The notes under the pieces were generated by a model that worked only from the letters and a program-made list of their open reading frames with translations, was not told the DNA's origin and did not search any database. Below, one piece after another: positions 865 to 61,876 of a stretch of DNA of 64,000 nucleotides. Made by a program: the position numbers and the translations under genes. Origin of the DNA: a virus; the IMG/VR virus record IMGVR_UViG_3300017527_000643, positions 1-64,000 of that record. One strand, given 5' to 3'. Each line of letters starts with the position of its first letter. Position 1 is the stretch's first letter.

Positions 865-885
865 TTTTTAGGAACGGTGACCGCT

Positions 886-3153
886 ATGGCAAAGATTGAC
901 ACGCTTAAGTCTCATTTTGCATTCTTGGCAAGTTCCCAAGGATATATTAGTGAGGATGACTACCATACAGCATGCCATAGTATTACTGACAGCGGAATGC
1001 TGCAGGAATTGGCTGACTGGATAGTAGAAAAAGATTATAAATTGGTAAAGGGAGTTGGCCCACAGTACCAGCAGGAAGTAATGCAAAAGGTAAAGAACCC
1101 TAATGTAAACGATGTGAAAGATACAAAACATCGAACGCATAAAAATAAGAACAAATTTCAGAAGTCCAAGAAGAAGGACGCTGATTGGGAAGAAGACGAG
1201 CGCAAGCTTGAAGATCAATCAGCGGGTTGGGATCGTTTTAAACTAGTTGAAGGTGATACGTGGGATTACGTAATAGAAACAGGGATGGGTAATCCAACTG
1301 AAGAAGAAGAAAACGCTATTATGCGGTCGGATTATTATGGAAAAGAAATAACAGACGAAAGCATAGAAAGATTGAAAAAGGGATTGCCTTGGGAACCGAA
1401 GGGTAAATTTTCCATGACGTATTCTGGCGTGGATGGGAAGGAAGAAATGTCATTCGACTCGGCAGAAGAAGCCAAAGAATATATAGTAGACCGTAGCCCG
1501 CTTAGGGTAAGTGAAGATGGCTTTGGTACGGACTACGCAAGTTATTCGTTTAACAATTTCACGCTATCTGATTTAGGGTTGTCTCACAATGAGTACGGTG
1601 AACTGAAAACAGACGCGTCATTTCATCTGAATAAAACTATCGAAGATATGCAAGAATTCGAAGATGAGTTTCTTCCTGCCTGGAAGAAATGGAAAGCATC
1701 TTTGAACGACGATAAAGAATTTCTCGCACAGCTTGCTGCTGTGGGACTTACTGCACAGGATTTTAGCAACTACGAGCAGGCCCAACGTTCAATTATGCAG
1801 CTTATTGAATCATACGCAAATGAGATCCCAGAGGATGCACATATTGACCACGGGGCACTACAGAGTGAATTTTTGAAAATCGATCCGCGTTCTGAGCTTC
1901 CAATTAATCAGCGCATCACTAATGCAATCTCGCGGATGTATGATCCTGTAGTATTGAAAGAAATATTTGATACTATTTTTAGGGGCGTTCAGGCTGGCTT
2001 TGAAAAGGTGCCGCCGAAGCCCGATGAAGCGCCAGGGACGCCAGAAGAGCCTATGCCGTCTGGTACGCGTGAGATAGAATTCGATCTTGGCCCATCCGGG
2101 TTGGAAACTGCATCTAAGAAACCACGAGCACGTAAGGTTGCTGCAACGGTTGCTCGCATTGGGTATTCTGATAAAGAAAAGCTGAATATAAAGTTTGAAA
2201 ACGGTGCTAAGTTTTCTTCCTATGTGGCAGAAACTCCGTTGCAGAAGGCTGCTGGCTTAGAGGTATTTGATTCGTTAGCTACTACTGAGGGGTTGTTTTT
2301 CCCGTTTGAAGAAGAGGGCAGTGTAACGTTCCATATGGGCGCGGTTGCATTCCCAATTGATATTGTATTTTTGATGGAATCACCTAACGGGCTTGAAGTC
2401 GGAAAAGTAGTTGCGAATATCGAACCGGGCGCACCCGACTGGTGGTCCTACCCGAATACTGGTGCTGTATTGGAAGTAGCTGGAGGTATGTGTAAAAAGT
2501 CCAATATCAAAGTTGGGTCGGTTTGTAACGTCACTAGAAGAATTGAAGCTGATACGCTTCCTCCAGAGTACAGCTTGAGCTTACCTGATTACGCGGGTGA
2601 GCATGGTATCTTTGATTTGTTCAAGCTGCTGAGTGAATACCACAGCGGCCAAAGTGACCCTATCTATGCAGTTCAAAGTAGAGAAAGCAAAGACAATATT
2701 TCCTTAGATGAATTGGAAGCAATCGAAAGTCTGCTTGAAGATATTGATATGGGACGCTACATGCCGGGATATCCTCACGGGCAATTGGCTCCGGGTGAAG
2801 GCCCAATGAATAAACAAGAAGAGGAAGAGTACGAGAACGAGCAGGCAGAAGCGCGTAAAGATATGAGCATTGCTGAATCCTGGCTTCCAGAGATTAGAGA
2901 ACTAATTAGTGAAAATTCTCCTGAAGAAGACAGCGAGCCTGAACCAGAAGAAGATGATATCTTTATGCAGCCTTCTGGTTCGCTGGGCGGCAGAACGAGC
3001 GTTAGTGCCGGTGGAAAATTTTTAGGAGAGTTCTCTTCAGATGAAGAGGCCGAAGCTGCTATAAAAGAATGGATGGAAGAACATAAGTGGTACCCTAACG
3101 TATGGAGAGTATCAGATCACGGCAACATAATTGGACCAATCGTTCTGGAGTAA
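886..3153 (+). CDS. Large head-region protein with embedded DUF192 domain
   Basis: 755 residues from ATG 886. A GTG at 877 is in frame, but AGGA at 870-873 lies too close to it, so 886 is preferred. Residues about 425-550 match the DUF192 pattern: a strand region, a hydrophobic 'GL' segment, an aromatic FPF segment, then FHMGAVAFPIDIVFL, which corresponds to the family's conserved Met/Asn-Pro-Leu-Asp-Ile core. DUF192 proteins are small beta-rich proteins of unknown function, usually alone or secreted. Here one is buried in a long acidic protein. A Pro/Glu linker precedes it (near residue 385). The C-terminal 50 residues form a separate small domain ending in a YPNVWRVSDHGN motif seen in other phage proteins. 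It probably acts in head assembly or as an internal protein, by location only. Confidence 0.7.
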   Translation: MAKIDTLKSHFAFLASSQGYISEDDYHTACHSITDSGMLQELADWIVEKDYKLVKGVGPQYQQEVMQKVKNPNVNDVKDTKHRTHKNKNKFQKSKKKDADWEEDERKLEDQSAGWDRFKLVEGDTWDYVIETGMGNPTEEEENAIMRSDYYGKEITDESIERLKKGLPWEPKGKFSMTYSGVDGKEEMSFDSAEEAKEYIVDRSPLRVSEDGFGTDYASYSFNNFTLSDLGLSHNEYGELKTDASFHLNKTIEDMQEFEDEFLPAWKKWKASLNDDKEFLAQLAAVGLTAQDFSNYEQAQRSIMQLIESYANEIPEDAHIDHGALQSEFLKIDPRSELPINQRITNAISRMYDPVVLKEIFDTIFRGVQAGFEKVPPKPDEAPGTPEEPMPSGTREIEFDLGPSGLETASKKPRARKVAATVARIGYSDKEKLNIKFENGAKFSSYVAETPLQKAAGLEVFDSLATTEGLFFPFEEEGSVTFHMGAVAFPIDIVFLMESPNGLEVGKVVANIEPGAPDWWSYPNTGAVLEVAGGMCKKSNIKVGSVCNVTRRIEADTLPPEYSLSLPDYAGEHGIFDLFKLLSEYHSGQSDPIYAVQSRESKDNISLDELEAIESLLEDIDMGRYMPGYPHGQLAPGEGPMNKQEEEEYENEQAEARKDMSIAESWLPEIRELISENSPEEDSEPEPEEDDIFMQPSGSLGGRTSVSAGGKFLGEFSSDEEAEAAIKEWMEEHKWYPNVWRVSDHGNIIGPIVLE

Positions 3154-4590: not shown

Positions 4591-4792
4591 CAAGCCACAA
4601 ACATACGTTTACCCAGATGATAATGATGGATTAGCGTTTGCTCCTCCATGCGAAATTGTTGATCTGGTTAAATTCGTAGATGGAGTTTGTCCGTTTTCTG
4701 GGCATGAGGATTGTAGGGATTGTATTTCAAATGAGTTTGATGCAGAGTGCATCTGGCAGCTTTGTAATTCAGACAGATTTGGATTGGCATAG
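4580..4792 (+). CDS. Small acidic, Cys-containing protein before the portal
   Basis: 70 residues. The frame is open further upstream (ATG at 4433), but that start would lie inside the preceding gene. ATG 4580 has a TTAGGAGA site at 4571-4578, so it is chosen. The sequence is acidic with five Cys, four of them in a CPFSGHEDCRDC and ECIWQLC arrangement that could bind a metal, although spacing fits no standard zinc finger. It overlaps the preceding gene by 11 bases and the portal start by one base (TAG/GTG). Function unknown. Confidence 0.65.
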   Translation: MLRDKPQTYVYPDDNDGLAFAPPCEIVDLVKFVDGVCPFSGHEDCRDCISNEFDAECIWQLCNSDRFGLA

Positions 4793-6621
4793 TGGCTAAA
4801 AAATCAAAAACAAAGAAGAAAGCATCTACGCGTAAAAAAGCTGCTGCACCCATCGTGCATAGTCCAAACGTAATCCAGACTAAAGCTCGTGGACCCATCC
4901 GAAGAACCGCCCAAACATATGGTGGAAGCTCTGGGGCTGGCAGCACTTCTCGTGGTAGTGGCCAATCTTTAGCCCAATCTCCTCTCTACTACGACTACAG
5001 ATGGTCTACGCCAGATAAGTTCTATTATCCTAAAAATAGAGTAGTAGCGAATTCTATTTGGAGAGAAGTTTATAAAAGAGATCCTGCTATTGCTGCTGCT
5101 ACAGATATGTACGCTGAACTTCCCTGGTCGCAGTTTGACCTTATGGGTATTGACGACAAGCACATTCGACATGTCTACGAAGATATGTTCACCAGTTTGA
5201 ACCTTGTTCCCAAGCTCCCCTCGTTTACTCGGGACTATATGATAACTGGAGAATTAGTCCTTCATAATATTTTCAATTCTACCAAGGGAATATGGGATCG
5301 GATAATCCCGCACAACCCAGATTATGTAAAGGTGGATGGGATTGGGTTGGCAGTTGAGCAACCGTTACTTTCGCTACTTCCCACGCCAGAAATAAAAAGA
5401 CTGATCAATTCAACTGACCCACGGATACGCAGATTGCAGAAGGTTATTCCTAAAGAGATCATCAATGCCTTTAGGATGAATCGTGAAGTTCCCCTTGATG
5501 CACTAAACACTACGTATCTTCCTCGTTTGAATTCGTCTACAGATGTACGTGGAACATCATTATACACTCGGCTGTTCCGCGTCATTATGTATGAAGACTT
5601 TATTGTTAATGCCAGCCTCGCGGTTGCCCAGCGAAACGCTGCGCCGTTACGTATCTTCAAACTAGGTGATCCAAACAGCGGTTGGTTGCCAGATGAAGAA
5701 GACGAAGCTGCCTTTGCTGAGATGCTGAGTATGGCAGAAGCTGACCCGCTTGCTGCTATTATCATGCACCATAACGTCACCGCAGAGTTGGTAGGGGTGA
5801 GTGACCGCGTGCTGCTTATTTCTCGTGAGTGGGATTTTATAGAGCGGGTAAAGCTGCTTGGTTTGGGAGTTGCTAAATCGTTTCTGGTAGGTGAAACCTC
5901 GTTTGCTGCCGCAGTTGCAGGCTTACAGACTTTGATGGAAAGGCTTGCAGCGTTACGTTTGCGGTTTGAAGACGATTGGATGATAAAGAAGATATGTGCA
6001 CCCATTGCAGAAATTCATGAATTTTACAAAAGACCGCGCTGTGAAACTGAGCATCGAATTAGGGTGCAACGACCGTTAGAAGAGCGCGAGTTGATTATTC
6101 CAAAAATTAAATGGCATAAGAGCCTGGAACCCACCCAGGATGTTGCTATTCTTAATGTATGGAGAGATCTGAAAGAGCGTGGCATTCTTTCTGAGCGCAC
6201 TTACACCGCTGGTGCGGGTGTGGATATTGACGCTGAACGTAAGAACATCGCAGAAGAGCGTAAGTACAAGCAGGAGCACCCAGAGATATATGGTGCGCCG
6301 CAGCAGCAACAGGCCCCTCCGAAGCCCGGTGCGCCGGGTGCCCCAGGCGCTCCTCCGGGAGCACCGGGAGCCAAGCCGCCAATTCCTCCCCCTGCCTCCT
6401 TACAAAAGAAGTATGGGTCTAATAACCCCTATATGGCTAGTAGTCGGGATGAATTGGTAACTCGGTTAGACGAATTGGCCGATACAGAAAATAAAGTAGA
6501 TGTTCGGGATGTTGTAGAGGCCATGGATGATTTGGAATTTGAAGAAGGCATAAACCGCCGTGAAGAGCTTTTGCTTAATGATATCCCCTTAGCAGGCTCA
6601 GATCTTCTCACTGGAGAATAA
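4792..6621 (+). CDS. Portal protein
   Basis: 609 residues, GTG start at 4792 overlapping the preceding TAG by one base. The N-terminus (1-60) is a Lys-rich and then Gly/Ser-rich tail. Residues about 65-430 carry the features of large-phage portals: an aromatic clip region, a long helical stem, and the run FIERVKLLGLGVAKSFLVGE followed by a helix with LMERLAALRLRFED. The C-terminal region has a Gly-Ala-Pro linker around residues 500-530, then an acidic helical end. The portal forms the dodecameric ring at the capsid vertex through which DNA enters and leaves. Family assignment rests on overall layout, length and position upstream of the prohead protease, scaffold and capsid genes. Confidence 0.85.
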   Translation: MAKKSKTKKKASTRKKAAAPIVHSPNVIQTKARGPIRRTAQTYGGSSGAGSTSRGSGQSLAQSPLYYDYRWSTPDKFYYPKNRVVANSIWREVYKRDPAIAAATDMYAELPWSQFDLMGIDDKHIRHVYEDMFTSLNLVPKLPSFTRDYMITGELVLHNIFNSTKGIWDRIIPHNPDYVKVDGIGLAVEQPLLSLLPTPEIKRLINSTDPRIRRLQKVIPKEIINAFRMNREVPLDALNTTYLPRLNSSTDVRGTSLYTRLFRVIMYEDFIVNASLAVAQRNAAPLRIFKLGDPNSGWLPDEEDEAAFAEMLSMAEADPLAAIIMHHNVTAELVGVSDRVLLISREWDFIERVKLLGLGVAKSFLVGETSFAAAVAGLQTLMERLAALRLRFEDDWMIKKICAPIAEIHEFYKRPRCETEHRIRVQRPLEERELIIPKIKWHKSLEPTQDVAILNVWRDLKERGILSERTYTAGAGVDIDAERKNIAEERKYKQEHPEIYGAPQQQQAPPKPGAPGAPGAPPGAPGAKPPIPPPASLQKKYGSNNPYMASSRDELVTRLDELADTENKVDVRDVVEAMDDLEFEEGINRREELLLNDIPLAGSDLLTGE

Positions 6622-7150: not shown

Positions 7151-7827
7151 ACATTACAAAAGAAAACATAGATCATTTTTGGCAGAATGTGGTTGTAAAG
7201 AACTTTCCAGATGCTAAAATAAAGTTCAAGAATAAAAGCATTTTGATGCGCATTCTTGGCGTGTTGCTATTTTTCAACCCTTCCTTTATGACAAAATTTA
7301 TTACGGTGCTTGGCAATACTATCTACGTGCCAACAGCAAAGTGGATGGAGGATGAATACCGTACTATCTTATTTGTTTTTTCCCATGAGTTTGTCCACAT
7401 GTGGGACCGCAATCTTTCTAAACTTGCGTACAAATGGGATTTGTTTTCTTTGGGGTACCTTTCCCCGCAACTATGGGGCTTGCTTAGTTTGACTGCGTTT
7501 TTGGCTTTCATCAATTTATGGTTTTTATTGTGTTTGATTCCTTTGGTTTTTGTAGCTCCTTGGCCTTCTCCTTGGCGCACAAAGATTGAAGCTAATGGCT
7601 ACGCAATGACTATGTATATACGGTCCATTACAATTGACCCGCAGTATGATAAAGAGCAGGGAGCAGAATTGCTAGCTAAGAAGCACTTTGTCAGTAAACA
7701 ATATTACTGGATGTGCCGCGATAAAGATAAAGTCAAGAAGATGCTGATTGAACGATACGAAACGTTACCGCAAACGCATGGTGCATTTAACGAGGTTTCC
7801 CAATGGGTAAAGACCCAACTACGCTGA
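7147..7827 (+). CDS. Membrane-associated HExxH (gluzincin-like) protein
   Basis: 226 residues, start overlapping the amidase stop as ATGA. A hydrophobic stretch covers about residues 33-55. The zinc motif HEFVH lies at 80-84. Two closely spaced membrane segments lie at about 107-138, and a candidate third ligand E148 sits in KIEANGYAMTM, which resembles the ExxxDxxA helix of M48-type peptidases. This order is typical of integral-membrane zinc proteases. Short hypothetical phage proteins with this layout exist, but I know of no assigned function. Coupling to an amidase suggests a lysis or cell-envelope role; cleavage of a host membrane protein is another option. It overlaps the following nuclease gene by 25 bases. 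Confidence 0.75.
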   Translation: MNITKENIDHFWQNVVVKNFPDAKIKFKNKSILMRILGVLLFFNPSFMTKFITVLGNTIYVPTAKWMEDEYRTILFVFSHEFVHMWDRNLSKLAYKWDLFSLGYLSPQLWGLLSLTAFLAFINLWFLLCLIPLVFVAPWPSPWRTKIEANGYAMTMYIRSITIDPQYDKEQGAELLAKKHFVSKQYYWMCRDKDKVKKMLIERYETLPQTHGAFNEVSQWVKTQLR

Positions 7828-8827: not shown

Positions 8828-9718
8828 ATGCCGTTTTACAAGACCGCTCAGACTCCCATCGTTAGCGTCTACGAATCGTCTGGAAAATTTAGTAAAAGAG
8901 CAGCCCAAAATGATGAAATGACACAGCAAGAAGACGATGCTGTGAAGACTGCGTTGAACATCTTATCAAAAGATGTTCTCAAGGCTGTTTCTAAAGTTTA
9001 TAACATATCTGATAATATCAATGATTATATTTTTCCAGTGCCTCGTGCGGTGACTGCTGATGAACCAAACAACAATGGTGATAATTTTAGGCATGATGAA
9101 CTTACGCGGTTCTCATCCAATCACCGTTGTTTAGTTTTTCAGACTTTCCGCAATGATCCTCTACATATAGAGCACGCAGCAGACGACCCAAAGAGTGCGC
9201 GTGGCTATATTCCTGATGCCCACTATGTGACAGCTAAGGATGACGATAAGCACGTTCTTACTGTTGTGGCGATGGATACTACTAAAGATGCGCCTCTAGC
9301 AGAAAGCTTATTGAGCGGGGATGTTGACACATTTTCTATGGGATGCATTTGTGACCAAGTGCGTTGTAGTTACAGCAAATGTAACTCTCCAGTGGCTAAC
9401 TCGGATAGGGACTTATGCGATCACTTGAAATGGTACAAAATGTCTACCATTGATGGTGAGCTTATTTATGAAGATTGCTTGGGAGTTGAGTACCAGGAAT
9501 TGTCCGTTGTTGGTAATCCTGCAGATCCTAAAGCAAAAACACAAGCTCTCCTGAAGTATGCTGCAAGAAAAGCTAAACTTGGTCAGCCTCGTGCGGCATT
9601 TAGTTTACTTTCTACATTAGTTAGTGAGCCAGACCAGCGAGAAGTAGCTAGATTCTTTAGTAAAAACGCAGGTAAGCTGCCTGAGTCTATGTTAAGATTA
9701 GCCGACAAAATCTTATAA
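8828..9718 (+). CDS. Prohead maturation protease (serine type)
   Basis: 296 residues from ATG 8828, seven bases after AGGAGA; an earlier in-frame ATG at 8798 lies in the regulatory hairpin and is rejected. Residues about 70-235 form the protease core: VPRAVTADEPNNNGD, HIEHAADDP with catalytic His (H113 or H116), and DTFSMG with nucleophile S170. These fit the herpesvirus-assemblin-like prohead protease group. After the serine comes a Cys/His cluster (C173, C175, C180, C185, C197, H199), an insertion seen in some large-phage maturation proteases that may bind zinc. The protease cuts scaffold and capsid N-termini during head maturation. The C-terminal 60 residues are helical. It lies directly upstream of the scaffold and capsid genes. 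Confidence 0.85.
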   Translation: MPFYKTAQTPIVSVYESSGKFSKRAAQNDEMTQQEDDAVKTALNILSKDVLKAVSKVYNISDNINDYIFPVPRAVTADEPNNNGDNFRHDELTRFSSNHRCLVFQTFRNDPLHIEHAADDPKSARGYIPDAHYVTAKDDDKHVLTVVAMDTTKDAPLAESLLSGDVDTFSMGCICDQVRCSYSKCNSPVANSDRDLCDHLKWYKMSTIDGELIYEDCLGVEYQELSVVGNPADPKAKTQALLKYAARKAKLGQPRAAFSLLSTLVSEPDQREVARFFSKNAGKLPESMLRLADKIL

Positions 9719-9798
9719 ATATAAACTTTCAAAATATTCTAACAGAAGTTTAACAATTTTTCCTATAAATTAGATAATAACAATAAGGAGTTTCAACA

Positions 9799-11526
9799 AT
9801 GTCGCATGGACTTCGCGCCCGCGTAGCAAAAAAAGCTAAGCGCCTAGCAAAAAAAGCGCAAGTAGCGCCGCCAGGTGCACCGCCCGCACCAGGGGCTGTA
9901 CCGGCCCCTGGAGCACCCACGGGCGCACCTCCTATGCCCGGTGCCCCTCCTGCTCCTGGAGCAGTCCCTGGAGCGCCAAAACCCCCCGGAAGGCCCCCTG
10001 CTGGCGGTGCGCCCCCCGGCGCACCTCCTGGCGCACCAGCACCGGGAGCACCTAAACCTAAAGAGGAAATCGAACAAGACGTAGAAAAGGACATTCGCAA
10101 GCAGAAAGAGACTGAAAGCAAGATTAATGATTTGGATGAAAAGGTAACTGCTATCAGCGATCAGGTGGAAGGGCTAACCAAATCTATAAATAAACTAGTA
10201 AACACTATACAAAAAGGCGACGGTGGCCCTACTGATTTTGAAAAGAAGTTCGAAGAAGTAAAAGAAGAAGACGACGAGGGACTATCTTCCTCTGAATTTG
10301 GTTTAGGTAACGACGATGACAGTCTTATTGTAAGCAAGGAGGGACATAAAATGTCCGATAAGCAAAAACTGAGAAAAGCGCGTAAGGAACGGCTGCAGGC
10401 GAAGGAACTTACGTATGAAATGAAGGAAATGCCCAACAAGAAGTACAAGCAACAAGTTCCAGCACCGACGATCACTAAGCTGAAGGACGAACCGGATGAT
10501 TGGGGTCAGTACCGGCTGAAGGCGTCAGACATGGCTATGGATCTGAACGCCGCTGGCGATGAGTGGGCTATTGTAAATAAGCACAACGATCAGGTTTTCT
10601 ACACAATCAAGCCGACTGCTGAGACTAAGGAAGTTTTCTCTACCCGTGAGTTTGCCGAGGCAGTAATCAACGACGTGCGCGAAATGGGCCTTGAAGCGGC
10701 CATGGATAAGTACGCTGCCCTTCCTATGGAATTCTTGAAAAAGAAGAAAGAGGAAGATGGCGACGGCGATGAGAAGCCGAAGATGCCGATGAAGATGAAG
10801 CCGAAGGACAAAGAAGAGAAGAAAATGCCTCCCTTTATGAAGAAAAAGAAAGAGGAGGATGTTGATGATAAGATGGAAGAAGAAGCTTGCGGTGCGATGA
10901 AGTCCGCACAAGCAGAAGAAGGTGATGCACCTGCGGAAGAAGAAGCTCCTGCAGAGGAAGTAGAGGCCGCTGCGGAGGAAGCACCCGCAGAAGAAGCCCC
11001 GGAAGAAGTAGCACCTGCAGAAGAATCTACTGATGATGAGCCTACGGAAGCTACAGCCTCGTTGGCTGACGTTCAGCGTAGATTCATTCGGGCATTCCGT
11101 CTAGCGCTTTCTGCCCAGCAGAAAAACCTGACTGACAATCCGCTCAAAGCAGCTTGGTACGAGACGCTGGCAGGGTTGGATATTCCTAACGCCGAGAAGG
11201 TGATCGAAGCTACGTTTGCTCGCGCTGCCGCTGAGCATTTCGAAGTTGCATTGCTGAAGACTGCTGAGTTCCTGGGTATGAGCGATGAGGCTTTTGTAGA
11301 AATGGAATCTCAGATTGGCGAATTGAATACCCAACCCCCTAAAACCGCATCCGAAGAAGAAGCAGATGAACGGCACCAGAAATCTGCTGCACTTCGGGCG
11401 CGTGCACATAATGCTTCGTTGCCGCTGTCCACAGCCAGTGACGCAGACCCTACCAACTTTGCTTCGCAGATCGAAAGCGCACTGCCGAAACCAAAGCTTC
11501 ATGGGGTAAGTCGGTTAGGTAAGTAA
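9799..11526 (+). CDS. Scaffold / prohead core protein
   Basis: 575 residues, ATG 9799 after AAGGAG. Regions: a basic start (1-23); a collagen-like Gly-Ala-Pro tract (about 25-92); a coiled coil (about 93-140); an acidic linker; a folded block (about 230-315); Lys- and Met-rich tracts; a Glu/Ala/Pro tract (about 370-420); and a helical C-terminal domain (about 425-575). The layout, charge bias and place between prohead protease and major capsid protein fit a scaffold, which fills the prohead core and is degraded. An internal in-frame start with a strong ribosome binding site at 10351 probably makes a second, shorter product. Base composition becomes more GC-rich after that point. Function is inferred from context. 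Confidence 0.7.
   Translation: MSHGLRARVAKKAKRLAKKAQVAPPGAPPAPGAVPAPGAPTGAPPMPGAPPAPGAVPGAPKPPGRPPAGGAPPGAPPGAPAPGAPKPKEEIEQDVEKDIRKQKETESKINDLDEKVTAISDQVEGLTKSINKLVNTIQKGDGGPTDFEKKFEEVKEEDDEGLSSSEFGLGNDDDSLIVSKEGHKMSDKQKLRKARKERLQAKELTYEMKEMPNKKYKQQVPAPTITKLKDEPDDWGQYRLKASDMAMDLNAAGDEWAIVNKHNDQVFYTIKPTAETKEVFSTREFAEAVINDVREMGLEAAMDKYAALPMEFLKKKKEEDGDGDEKPKMPMKMKPKDKEEKKMPPFMKKKKEEDVDDKMEEEACGAMKSAQAEEGDAPAEEEAPAEEVEAAAEEAPAEEAPEEVAPAEESTDDEPTEATASLADVQRRFIRAFRLALSAQQKNLTDNPLKAAWYETLAGLDIPNAEKVIEATFARAAAEHFEVALLKTAEFLGMSDEAFVEMESQIGELNTQPPKTASEEEADERHQKSAALRARAHNASLPLSTASDADPTNFASQIESALPKPKLHGVSRLGK
10351..11526 (+). CDS. Predicted internal-start scaffold product
   Basis: An AAGGAGGG ribosome binding site (10336-10343) lies eight bases before ATG 10351, which is exactly 184 codons into the scaffold frame. 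Translation from here would give a 391-residue protein lacking the Gly-Ala-Pro tract and first coiled coil. Nested in-frame scaffold products are established in lambda (Nu3 within C). Codon use also shifts here towards AAG, CTG and CAG, as if two once separate genes were fused or the C-terminal part is the abundant form. Not proven without protein data. Confidence 0.55.
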   Translation: MSDKQKLRKARKERLQAKELTYEMKEMPNKKYKQQVPAPTITKLKDEPDDWGQYRLKASDMAMDLNAAGDEWAIVNKHNDQVFYTIKPTAETKEVFSTREFAEAVINDVREMGLEAAMDKYAALPMEFLKKKKEEDGDGDEKPKMPMKMKPKDKEEKKMPPFMKKKKEEDVDDKMEEEACGAMKSAQAEEGDAPAEEEAPAEEVEAAAEEAPAEEAPEEVAPAEESTDDEPTEATASLADVQRRFIRAFRLALSAQQKNLTDNPLKAAWYETLAGLDIPNAEKVIEATFARAAAEHFEVALLKTAEFLGMSDEAFVEMESQIGELNTQPPKTASEEEADERHQKSAALRARAHNASLPLSTASDADPTNFASQIESALPKPKLHGVSRLGK

Positions 11527-11585
11527 TCTAACACTTTGTTTTTTGAATAAAAAACTTGATGAAAGCTTAAAGAGGAGAAAGTAAA

Positions 11586-12308
11586 ATGCTAGACAAAAAA
11601 AGAGGATACGCGTATGACCGCCCGTTCTATGATGTAGACACTAACGTTAACATCTGGGCAGGTATGGTTGCCTTCCTAGCAACCAATGCGGCTGGAGCAA
11701 CTGTGGCAACTACGGCTGCTTCTGGTTCGGTTCCTATTGGAACCTTCTGGAAGGATAGTGCGCTGGCCTACATCCGTACCAACATTGAGAGTGGTACATT
11801 CAATGCTACGAATACGCTCAACTTGAGCAAGGGTAATGTGCTTGGAACCGGATTCATTAAGGTAACGAGTGCTACTGGCATGACCGTGTATACTCAGGGA
11901 ACTGACTATACGGTATCAACCACGAATGGTGTAGTTACACGCCTGGCTGCAGGTACTATTCCTGCCCTGGCCACCGTTCTGATTTGGTACAGCTATAACC
12001 TGCAGCAGACCCAAGTTTATTGGGACAATGTGTCCACGCAGTTCACCGCCGCAGGCCAGAACTATGATCGTCAGCCTGATGATACCTTGGGTTCTGGCAA
12101 GATCACGGTTGCTGAGAGTGACGCAAAGCTGTACACCGATCAGTACGATGTCAACCAGACTTACACCCTGAATGCGCCACTTTATTCCAATTCAGTGAGT
12201 CAGTGGACGACTGTTGCTGGATTTACCAATGTGTGTGGTCGTGTAATTGGCGTGCCGACTGCCGCAGATCCGTTCCTGGGAGTGCAGCAGATTACGGTGG
12301 CTGTGTAA
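11586..12308 (+). CDS. Capsid decoration or minor head protein candidate
   Basis: 240 residues, ATG 11586 preceded by AGAGGAGAAAG. It is Ala/Thr/Gly-rich, beta-rich, without enzyme motifs. Residues about 75-135 form an Ig-like module with the pattern GTDYTVSTTNGVVTRL followed by strands ending WYSYNL; similar modules occur in the sheath and baseplate genes of this window. Position between scaffold and major capsid protein, high-expression codon use and a strong ribosome site fit a decoration or minor capsid protein. The family is not recognised with certainty. Confidence 0.6.
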   Translation: MLDKKRGYAYDRPFYDVDTNVNIWAGMVAFLATNAAGATVATTAASGSVPIGTFWKDSALAYIRTNIESGTFNATNTLNLSKGNVLGTGFIKVTSATGMTVYTQGTDYTVSTTNGVVTRLAAGTIPALATVLIWYSYNLQQTQVYWDNVSTQFTAAGQNYDRQPDDTLGSGKITVAESDAKLYTDQYDVNQTYTLNAPLYSNSVSQWTTVAGFTNVCGRVIGVPTAADPFLGVQQITVAV

Positions 12309-12365
12309 GTTAGGACACCGGGAGTCTTAACCGCTACTTAAACCATTTGTCAAGGAGGATTAGTT

Positions 12366-13502
12366 ATGAAGTTTAACCCGTACACCAGCAAGCAGGCTTC
12401 CGGTGTAGAAACGCTGGACCGAAAAACCGGAGCACCTTTCAACCCAATGAATGTGGGCAAAGTACAGAAGTCTGGCAATATGCAGATCTCTGCTTCTGAG
12501 CGTATGTTCAACAACCAAGGCGAAATCAACGCCAGCGGTAACGGTGAAGTTCTCGAAAAGATCAAGCACCTGCTGGACGGTATGGCTGACGGCACTTATG
12601 ACGTTGAGCGTACCGCCTCGTATGCAGGCGAAGGGATGAGCGGAGCGGAGAGTGATGCTATTCTTCGTGAAGCTTTCTCCGATCCTTCAAGCGAGGGATT
12701 CCGCCAGGTTGGTCAGGGCCTCCTGAACCCCATTAAGGAAGTCATTGACTATGAGGGTCTGGCACGCAAAGTATTCGCGCCCAGAACCGTGAAGGCTGGG
12801 GAAGTTGTACGTTACGACAAGGACGTGTACATCCGGGGTTGGGTGATCGCAGAAGACGGTCAGACCCCGCAGTCCGTTGTCGAGGGACGCTACATCTACC
12901 CGCCTGAGTTCGAAGTTACCGCTTATCCTTCGATTGAGATCAAGGACAAGTATCGTGCGCAGTACGCCATCCTGGCCCGTGTGCAGGATCGTGCGCGTAT
13001 GAGCATTGAGTACCAGGAAGACTTGGCGCTCATCAACCTGCTGCAGGCTGGCGCGAACGCCACCAACACTACCACGTTCTTTGCTACACTGAACTTGGCA
13101 GCGCTGGAAGGCATTCGTTACCAGATTGAGCGGCACCGTCTGATCTGTGACAAGTTCATCATCCATCGTCAGGAAGTCTCTGACTTGGTGAACACTCTGT
13201 CCCAGCAGGTGGACCCGGTAACCCAGCGTGAGTTGATCATGGCCGGTTACATCGGTACCGTGCTGAATGCTATGATCGTGACCACTGCCGGTACGCAGAC
13301 GTTTGAAATTCTGCAGCCTGGTGAAGTTGTGGCCGTTACCGCCCCTGAGTACTTGGGTGGTATGCCTATCCGTGTCGAGTTGTTCAGCGAGCCTGTCAAC
13401 GAGTTCATGGAAGGCCGTCCGCGCCAGGGTTGGTTCTGGTACGAGTTGATTGCACAGGTACTCGTGAATCCTGCTGGTGTTGCACAGGGCACCAAGGTTT
13501 AA
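12366..13502 (+). CDS. Major capsid protein (HK97 fold)
   Basis: 378 residues, ATG 12366 after AAGGAGG. The first 100 or so residues are a helical N-terminal arm, likely cut by the prohead protease. Then comes a core with E-loop-like segment (GEVVRYDKDVYIRGWV), a long spine helix (ARMSIEYQEDLALINLLQAG), P-domain strands, and a C-terminal segment on the conserved 'hub of the A-domain' style (VVAVTAPEYLGGMPIRVELF). Very strong ribosome site and the most GC-rich, optimised codons in the head module fit the most abundant virion protein. Assignment is from fold-like pattern, length, position after the scaffold and codon bias. Confidence 0.82.
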   Translation: MKFNPYTSKQASGVETLDRKTGAPFNPMNVGKVQKSGNMQISASERMFNNQGEINASGNGEVLEKIKHLLDGMADGTYDVERTASYAGEGMSGAESDAILREAFSDPSSEGFRQVGQGLLNPIKEVIDYEGLARKVFAPRTVKAGEVVRYDKDVYIRGWVIAEDGQTPQSVVEGRYIYPPEFEVTAYPSIEIKDKYRAQYAILARVQDRARMSIEYQEDLALINLLQAGANATNTTTFFATLNLAALEGIRYQIERHRLICDKFIIHRQEVSDLVNTLSQQVDPVTQRELIMAGYIGTVLNAMIVTTAGTQTFEILQPGEVVAVTAPEYLGGMPIRVELFSEPVNEFMEGRPRQGWFWYELIAQVLVNPAGVAQGTKV

Positions 13503-59952: not shown

Positions 59953-61401
59953 ATGAAGGGCAAAACTCTAATCGACTATACGAAGTGGGAAAAGGTTCAG
60001 AAGGAAGGCTTCCAAGAGAAATACGAACCGATGCAGGAAGCAATCAAGAACGGCGACAACAAGGGATATACGTTTGACCCATTCACGCAGGATCTTTTCA
60101 GTGCCCTTTACCAATTGAAGCCGCAGTTCCCGGAAGAAGCTACCCCTGGCACGAACTGGCAAAAGGAAGCACTCGATACGATGCGGGATCTCCGCGAGTA
60201 CAAGGATATTCGCAACGGTGGAACCCTCTGCGATAGCTTCCAGTCTGGTCTGGGCGCTACTGTGATGGCAAAGCATTTTGCAGAAGTGCTGCCTGAAATG
60301 GAAGAACCAAATCCCGATGAACTTCAAATGCAGCAAGAAGCTATCGAAGATTTTCTGCAGGAATTCCCCGATCACCCGAATAAGGAAAAGCACCAAAAGG
60401 CACTCCAGCGAATTGCAGACCAGAACAAGGCTTCGTCAAAGGCATGGCAGGAAGGTGCTATGAAGGGGCAGGATCTGCGGATTGCCATGCGCCAAGCGTT
60501 GACGAAGGCCAAAGAGGCTATCGGAAAAGCAGAAGAAATGGCAGATGCCTACGGGTTTGGCGACGAACCCGGTAAGGATGGGTACACTGACCCCACTATG
60601 AAGTTGCGGATCGCAGAGAAGGTTCGTGCCAATCCTAAGCTGCGCAAGCTGGCTGAACTGGCTGGAAGGTTCCGTAGAGAGGCTAGGAAGGCCCAGGCGC
60701 ACAAGAAGTCCCCTGGCCCGGATGAGATCACGGATATCGAGATGGGAGCCGACCTGGGGCGTCTTATCCCTTCGGAGCTAATGAAGCTGGCTCACCCTCT
60801 GATGAAGCTCGAATTTGCCCGCAGGATGCTGGAACGGGGCCTGTCTCAGTATAAAATGGAATCTGTAGAAAAGAAGACTCGTGGGCCTATCATCGTTTGT
60901 ATAGACAATTCATATTCGATGAGTGGTCCTAAAGAGATTTGGAGCAAAGCCATTGCGCTGGCTATGTGCCAGATTGCGGTCGATCAGAAGCGCACTTTCG
61001 AGGTTATGCATTTTGATACTAAAGTACAAAAGATCTTTGCATTTCCTGCTGGAAATACTAACCCAGAAGAACTGATTCAGTGTATGTCATACTTTAGTAA
61101 GGGCGGTACTAAATTTGCTCCGGTGCTTGCAACAGCGTATGACCATATTACGAATGCGGCTGAAAAGGATTTGAAGGAAGCGGACGTTATCTTTATCACA
61201 GACGGCGAAGCTCCACTGAGTACCACAGAACAGCAGATTATCACTGCAGCCAAGAAGGCGACCGGTGCGAGCCTGTACACGATTTGTTTGGGTGCGACTG
61301 CCCCTAGCCTGGAGCCGATCAGCGATAAGTTCCTGGATCTCAAGAATCTGACTTCTCCTGAAGATGAGGAACAGGCCAAAGAGCTTATTTTCTCTGTTTA
61401 G
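59953..61401 (+). CDS. vWA-domain protein (ViaA-like) partner of MoxR
   Basis: 482 residues from ATG 59953 after GCGGAGGAAA; the in-frame TTG at 59905 is a -35 box. Residues 1-305 are helical and charged. The vWA domain follows (about 310-482) with the full MIDAS metal site: D318-x-S320-x-S322 in DNSYSMSG, T386 in GGTKF, and D417 in ITDGEA. This is the order of ViaA, the partner of RavA in E. coli. From about 60850 the codons turn more AT-rich than in the N-terminal part. Confidence 0.9.
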   Translation: MKGKTLIDYTKWEKVQKEGFQEKYEPMQEAIKNGDNKGYTFDPFTQDLFSALYQLKPQFPEEATPGTNWQKEALDTMRDLREYKDIRNGGTLCDSFQSGLGATVMAKHFAEVLPEMEEPNPDELQMQQEAIEDFLQEFPDHPNKEKHQKALQRIADQNKASSKAWQEGAMKGQDLRIAMRQALTKAKEAIGKAEEMADAYGFGDEPGKDGYTDPTMKLRIAEKVRANPKLRKLAELAGRFRREARKAQAHKKSPGPDEITDIEMGADLGRLIPSELMKLAHPLMKLEFARRMLERGLSQYKMESVEKKTRGPIIVCIDNSYSMSGPKEIWSKAIALAMCQIAVDQKRTFEVMHFDTKVQKIFAFPAGNTNPEELIQCMSYFSKGGTKFAPVLATAYDHITNAAEKDLKEADVIFITDGEAPLSTTEQQIITAAKKATGASLYTICLGATAPSLEPISDKFLDLKNLTSPEDEEQAKELIFSV

Positions 61402-61480
61402 CCTTACCACTCCTAGACATTCCTTAATTTTTAGCCTCCACTGTGTGGTACAATACGCCGCATGTTTGGAGGATTTCATC

Positions 61481-61876
61481 ATGGCACGGGTACTTATAGT
61501 TGATGACGATCCATCTATATTGAAATTTGTAGAGGAAATATTAAACAAATATGCGAAAAACGAATATAGTTCAGATTGGGATTTACGGGTTACTTCAGTT
61601 AGCAGCGCGATTAAAGCGCTAGAAATAGTAAAAGAGCATAATTTTGAACTGATTATAACTGATATTCTGATGGCGCGTATGGATGGGTGGGAATTTATTA
61701 AGGAAATTAGAAAGAAATTTCCGCAGTTTGATACCCCAATTGTAGTTATATCTGCGATCCAAGGGGCAGATCTAAAGTATGAAAGTATGCGGCACGGAGC
61801 AAGTGCCTGGTTCCATAAGCCATTGCGCCCAAAGGAATTCACCACAGAAATTTTTAAATTGATTCAGGAGCGTTAG
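61481..61876 (+). CDS. Stand-alone response-regulator receiver domain (CheY-like)
   Basis: 131 residues from ATG 61481 after TTGGAGGATTTC. Acid pocket D8 and D9 (VDDDP), phospho-acceptor D61 (ITDILM), S91 (VISA), and K113 (FHKPLRP); all receiver residues are intact. There is no output domain. Such single-domain proteins act by binding partners after phosphorylation by a host kinase. A TACAAT at 61450-61455 could be its -10. No histidine kinase is present. Confidence 0.92.
   Translation: MARVLIVDDDPSILKFVEEILNKYAKNEYSSDWDLRVTSVSSAIKALEIVKEHNFELIITDILMARMDGWEFIKEIRKKFPQFDTPIVVISAIQGADLKYESMRHGASAWFHKPLRPKEFTTEIFKLIQER

Follow-up and report, generated by a model that had tools for sequence, protein, structure and literature searches.

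A conserved internal start codon predicts a second, nested scaffold product in the head module of a largely uncultured phage group

Results

Organization of the head module

The 64-kb window, that is, the whole stretch of DNA analyzed here, is part of a virus record of 93,971 bases. On its plus strand, it carries a head module in the order of portal, further ORFs, protease, a 575-aa scaffold ORF, a 240-aa head protein, and major capsid protein (MCP). This is the gene order of the lambda C/Nu3 type (portal, protease, scaffold, optionally a head protein, and capsid), with extra ORFs separating the portal and the protease. Profile matches identified the portal protein (4792 to 6621; phrog_16240, E 8.7e-82), the head maturation protease encoded by its own gene (8831 to 9718; phrog_18299, E 1.1e-37), and the MCP (12366 to 13502; phrog_2522, E 8.8e-54). 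The head protein between scaffold and MCP (11586 to 12308) is decoration-like from its position alone. At the start of the head region, a 758-aa ORF (877 to 3153) carries a DUF192 domain (Pfam E 3.1e-15).

The 575-aa ORF spans positions 9799 to 11526, with the Shine-Dalgarno (SD) sequence AAGGAG (9785 to 9790) 8 nt ahead of its ATG. Pfam and PHROG scans of this ORF gave no match above noise and no match to a scaffold family. It lies between the protease and the MCP, and its product is charged and helical or disordered, as is usual for scaffolding proteins; gene order and composition thus suggest a scaffold function. The AlphaFold2 model was poor overall (mean pLDDT 57.6, pTM 0.22), and a Foldseek search of it against the PDB returned no match at E 0.001 or better. 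Together with the alignment of relatives, it delimits a basic N-terminal helix (residues 1 to 21, 9799 to 9861; modeled helix 4 to 21) with R6 and K12 invariant and A20 and Q21 nearly so, a Pro/Ala/Gly-rich tract predicted to be unstructured (residues 22 to 85, 9862 to 10053), and a predicted long, coiled-coil-like helix (residues 88 to 138, 10060 to 10212; pLDDT about 76 to 84 for most of it). An SEFGL motif, in which F167 and G168 are invariant, follows at 10291 to 10305. Farther downstream lie a second basic helix, LRKARKERL (residues 188 to 202, 10360 to 10404), a small alpha/beta domain that we call scafM (residues 236 to 320, 10504 to 10758), and the helical C-terminal domain scafC (residues 422 to 561, 11062 to 11481), the last two being defined by both profile and model. 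scafC is the most widespread part of the protein.

An internal ribosome-binding site within the scaffold ORF

A sequence-only reading had pointed to a ribosome-binding site before an ATG inside this ORF. We found the SD sequence AAGGAGGG at 10336 to 10343, followed by a spacer of 7 nt (acataaa) and ATG 10351, which lies in the frame of the 575-aa ORF and would give a product of 391 aa (10351 to 11526), in agreement with that reading. Judging by the model, both the long and the short form would begin with a basic helix. Across the 43 plus-strand ORFs with 150 aa or more, we ranked all 355 in-frame internal ATGs by their pairing with the bacterial consensus anti-SD, which may not be that of the host. 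ATG 10351 had the strongest pairing, and just one other reached -9 kcal/mol. As a bare pattern, AAGGAGG-N4..10-ATG is no rarer in the window than expected by chance, with two sites against 1.1 in shuffled sequences. These two sites are the internal scaffold start (10336 to 10353) and the MCP start (12352 to 12368, with AAGGAGG at 12352 to 12358).

No sigma-70-like promoter was reported ahead of the internal start within 9778 to 10351, and the two sigma-70-like sites in 9500 to 12400 equal the number given by shuffles. Elsewhere in the window, the in-frame ATG 61481 has a strong SD and lies 40 codons inside a 170-aa ORF (61364 to 61876); a shorter gene may in fact begin there.

Conservation of the internal start

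Relatives were gathered from IMG/VR using the scaffold and the MCP as queries. A search of genome contigs found no relative of the scaffold and one of the MCP (L087), and a tblastn search of phage records with the short form was negative at E 0.01. The first set comprised 20 ORFs, including that of the window and two near copies (L016 and L017). The long frame was open in all of them, and an SD-like site preceded the outer start in each, counted from the second start codon in L005, L006, L009, L019, and L023, whose first has no such site. In 19 of the 20, GGAGG or a better SD lies 5 to 8 nt upstream of an internal in-frame ATG, and in 18 this ATG occupies the aligned position. In L009, it lies about 37 codons farther upstream relative to the scaffold domain, as measured on the identical sequence L048/L049, and the alignment shows an insertion there. 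The only ORF without an internal SD-ATG was L005. In L005/L012, an in-frame deletion of 75 nt near L005:4995, either a real variant or an assembly fault, takes out the SD, the start, and the basic helix; apart from the deletion, L006/L022 are nearly identical around the site.

If only the long form were made, the internal SD-ATG would be a chance or protein-constrained match. This reading draws on the chance-level count of the bare pattern, on the lack of the site in L005, and on the residues at the site (KEGHKM), which belong to a stretch conserved in near relatives. However, the residues over the SD differ among the relatives (KEG, KEE, KED, TED, EEE, and REE), while GGAGG remains constant. 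We therefore scored, for 18 of the 20 rows (L005 and L017 omitted), how often sequence pairs with the same residue also use the same codon. Over 424 columns, the mean was 0.434, and the SD columns Glu181, Lys180, and Gly182 scored 1.00, 0.96, and 0.89, ranking first, third, and sixth. Thus, synonymous codons are fixed at the site and free to vary elsewhere.

This picture was further supported by a shuffle test, in which codons were swapped among identical amino acids within each ORF so that the protein was kept (500 shuffles; kinship ignored). The ORFs were thinned at 80% identity, which reduced the window's group, in which the protease is a separate gene (the split group), from 28 to 22 and a sister group that encodes both protease and scaffold in a single ORF (the fused group) from 31 to 27. 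In the split group, an SD of -9 kcal/mol or better preceded an ATG at the site in 16 of the 22 ORFs; the shuffles gave a mean of 3.9 and a maximum of 9. The exceptions with a weak or no SD were L012 (equal to L005, with the deletion), L046 (-5.8), L052 (-7.7), and L081 (none). Those of another kind were L048, with a strong SD outside the scanned positions, and L050, where the scaffold is a gene of its own. In the fused group, scanned from -12 to +1 codons around a reference point in scafM, an SD of -8 kcal/mol or better preceded an ATG or GTG in 19 of the 27 ORFs (shuffles: mean 3.65, maximum 9). Two further ORFs (L069 and L079) reached -7.7 at the site, and six (L053, L068, L073, L077, L083, and L084) had no good SD-start candidate there. 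Since the observed SD count was unreached by codon shuffles, and given the step in codon use described below, we consider it very unlikely that the long form alone is made.

Codon use changes at the internal start

The sequence-only reading had also noticed a change in codon use at this point, and this held up. Measured against the codon set of the window's head-protein and MCP genes, codon adaptation was 0.51 before and 0.643 after 10351 (protease, 0.50; MCP, 0.758), and none of 2000 amino acid–preserving permutations attained this difference. In the window alone, the change point is broad, with the best position at codons 191 to 195 and near-equal ones from 140 to 225 (the start is codon 185). 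Among the relatives, GC3 was higher in the 100 codons after the start than in the 100 before it in 18 of 18 sequences, although the gap was tiny in some (0.433 versus 0.430 in L024). Using each locus's own head-protein and MCP codon set, we found higher codon adaptation downstream of the start than upstream of it in 18 of 20 split loci, with z > 2 in 8 of them. Of the 27 fused loci, 24 showed the same rise, 13 of them with z > 2. Two loci had a strong SD yet no step (L010 and L014; z of -0.3 and -0.4).

The chief concern with this result is a regional gradient, since the reference genes are all downstream of the scaffold ORF. When the 47 loci were pooled, a step described the data with a weighted SSE of 175.6, compared to 213.4 for a straight gradient and 269.7 for no change, and the best change point fell +6 to +9 codons from the start. 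This position argues against a regional gradient.

The upstream extension

The conserved parts of the extension are the short basic helix, the coiled coil, and the [S/E]EFG[L/I] motif. Comparison of the window with five near relatives gave dN/dS values of 0.02 to 0.05 for the coil (in the three of the five pairs where it could be estimated), 0.07 to 0.26 for the Pro-rich tract, and 0.03 to 0.37 for the N-terminal helix; these values are rough, as dS is near or beyond saturation. Such low values suggest that the long product is probably under selection. The Pro-rich tract differs in length among the relatives, and L009, L023, L027, and L029 have little or none of it. It had been described from the sequence as collagen-like, a term that we do not retain, since the longest run of Gly-X-Y triplets in the whole protein is two triplets and lies outside the tract. 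The tract resembles the Pro/Gly/Ala-rich one in the window's portal (residues about 497 to 536).

That the short form alone matters, with the upstream part an untranslated relic or a mis-called extension, would agree with upstream codon use unlike that of capsid genes and with the variability of the Pro-rich tract, but we regard it as the least likely reading of all, given the frame open in 20 of 20 ORFs behind its own SD-like site, the low dN/dS of the coil, the invariant residues in the N-terminal helix and at F167-G168, and the survival of the upstream part as an intact ORF of its own in L050.

Gene layouts in the sister group

scafM was recognizable in 59 of the 60 loci examined, including the window (the exception being L074). 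In 31 of these 59 loci (27 after thinning), a single ORF of 750 aa or more contains the protease, the linker, and the scaffold. As in the lambda C/Nu3 layout, these fused ORFs are headed by the protease, and most (19 of the 27) have an internal SD-start at the scaffold domain, which in several is the only strong one inside the ORF. The window's group has a stand-alone protease gene, while linker and nested start persist in the scaffold ORF. In L050, protease, upstream part, and scaffold are three separate genes; the upstream ORF ends in EQEFGIMSPGYY, and the scaffold there thus starts at its own AAGGAGG-GTG. In L048 (4772 to 4790), the protease stop is followed by the scaffold ORF in the same frame, as if a fused ORF had been cut once. 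The start is thus kept across three gene layouts. The MCP tree places 17 of the 18 split rows together, although the support (96/59) is not strong; L081 falls among the fused rows, and the Alexandravirus branch is very long.

Split upstream parts and fused linkers also share frequent Pro-rich tracts and a linker motif (SSEFGL, TPEEFGI, TPEAMGI, and similar). We counted 16 matches in 3,082 aa in the split group, within 150 aa upstream of the start, and 23 in 4,050 aa in the fused group, whereas MCP sequence (18,555 aa) had none and unlabeled ORFs (33,583 aa) had 4; this enrichment is post hoc, as the pattern was widened after a first version had missed the window's SEFGL. The last 300 residues of the portals contained 13 matches, 5 of them linker-like and the other 8 of a different type (LGVKFSK, for example). 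The linker-like ones belong to five sister-group portals (L069, L073, L075, L079, and L080; for example, GLPPDALGM and GIPPEAMGF). The TPEAMGI/SEFGL/PPDALGM motif is a possible docking or cleavage site.

Comparison with known systems

In lambda, the scaffold arises from an internal in-frame start in a longer ORF between the portal and capsid genes, the two products share their C terminus, and the long form carries the protease upstream of the scaffold. This overlap of C and Nu3 was reportedly described by Shaw and Murialdo in 1980. Judged from genes alone, the window's scaffold resembles C/Nu3 in its internal in-frame start with its own ribosome-binding site, shared C terminus, and location between portal and capsid. 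It differs in that the protease, which heads the long form in the sister group, is separate here and the upstream part consists of a helix, a Pro-rich tract, and a coiled coil; the likeness described here is one of layout. Because the protease is a gene of its own, the window's long form is not an equivalent of gpC, and we call the arrangement a variant of the lambda type. The analogy with Nu3 drawn in the sequence-only reading therefore stands for the nested start, backed by its conservation, the codon-use step, and the internal SD-start of the sister group, but not for a protease-bearing long form. Phage Mu I/Z and herpesvirus UL26/UL26.5 likewise encode protease and scaffold in one ORF, with a scaffold product nested in frame inside it. 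In contrast to the window, the protease is in their long form, and herpesviruses use a separate mRNA.

The same head module is found around Rctr197k_047 of virus Rctr197k (KX853510; L001 5824 to 8820), with an MCP 43.7% identical to that of the window and a weak scaffold similarity of 26%. Unlike in the window, a single ORF of 998 aa spans the protease, a Pro-rich linker, and the scaffold, which places this virus in the fused sister group. It contains a candidate internal ATG at 7216 with AAGGAG, just upstream of the scaffold domain, and is annotated in the record only as "similar to hypothetical protein". A similar layout occurs in three mycobacteriophages: in Settecandela gp53 (852 aa; L092 3992 to 6550), AAGGAGG lies 8 nt upstream of an in-frame ATG (codon 321), and GAGGAGG precedes in-frame ATGs at codon 735 of Bixzunavirus Alice gp90 (L091 4953 to 9488) and at codon 593 of Bixzunavirus Loanshark gp97 (L093 2501 to 6610). 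All three are long ORFs that begin with a protease and lie two genes ahead of the MCP; they are annotated as hypothetical proteins. The recorded host of Settecandela and Alice is M. smegmatis mc2 155. Profiles of the window's family did not recognize the scaffold part of Alice gp90, the one ORF of the three examined in this way, so homology of these starts with that of the window would be conjectural. Other parts of Alice gp90 match tape-measure and further proteins of unrelated phages, as if domains had been inserted.

In the Alexandravirus-like Dickeya phage AD1 and Salmonella phage Sen-NF, a protein two genes before the MCP matched scafC (E 2.6e-7 and 2.8e-6), and neither phage has a scafM domain. 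An internal SD-start of -7 kcal/mol or better was found in none of these two and Xanthomonas phage PhiXhv-12. The protease of AD1 is a separate gene. AD1 gp140 (L088 2145 to 4139), annotated as an "ATPase", is scaffold-like by its C-terminal domain and its place before the MCP. A literature search covering few subscription papers found no description of a nested scaffold start in the window's family.

Discussion

The two starts, their conservation, the step in codon use, and the gene layouts can be read directly from the sequences compared here, and every relevant test except the bare pattern count supports the nested start, which is very probably used. We consider it highly likely that one ORF gives rise to two in-frame scaffold products and that the internal start was inherited from, or is shared with, a lambda-like fused organization in which protease, linker, and scaffold form a single ORF. 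Ribosomes starting at 9799 behind AAGGAG would make the 575-aa long form, and those starting inside at 10351 behind AAGGAGGG would make a 391-aa scaffold with the whole shared C-terminal part. The short form is probably the more abundant product. The long form would then probably be a minor partner that co-assembles via the shared C terminus and supplies the prohead core with its basic helix, flexible Pro-rich tract, and coiled coil. We infer the production of both proteins, their ratio, the scaffold function, and the role of the extension.

The long form might, in addition, bridge scaffold and portal as a vertex-specific initiation scaffold, which would extend the two-product reading without replacing it. 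Lambda Nu3, C, and portal B make up an initiator complex (PMC3224144). A Pro-rich tract like that of the long form occurs in the portal of the window, and five sister-group portals have a related motif near such Pro-rich tails. However, the tract is of low complexity and lost in several relatives, and only 5 of the 13 portal matches are linker-like, so we view a portal link as doubtful.

Alternatively, the prohead protease could release the short form from the long one, instead of or besides internal initiation. The protease gene adjoins the scaffold ORF, and scaffolds of protease-bearing phages are commonly processed. In the same direction, virion proteins are proteolytically processed in phage PaBG, which has an MCP related to the one of Rctr197k (PMC7412058). 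Yet cleavage leaves the conserved SD, the Met, and the constraint on synonymous sites unexplained, and we consider it improbable.

Returning to two products from one ORF, we tentatively suggest that the nested scaffold start could be older than the gene boundaries around it. The protease may have split off from, or joined, the scaffold ORF around a fixed start, and in one lineage the upstream part may have turned into a separate gene with the start still in place. The retained long form would be a second, protease-free scaffold that seeds assembly at a single place, for instance the portal vertex, and two ribosome-binding sites on one mRNA would set how much of each form is made.

A gene finder that allows one start per ORF would report only the long form. 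Thus, the probable main scaffold of a large, mostly uncultured phage group would go unannotated. A step in codon use within an ORF is a sign of internal initiation that is simple to read from genomes and could be looked for elsewhere, and the cultured mycobacteriophages with similar protease-headed ORFs allow a bench test. Within the family itself, protease and scaffold are fused, partly split, or fully split around a single conserved internal start, and this offers a natural series for asking why scaffold genes nest.
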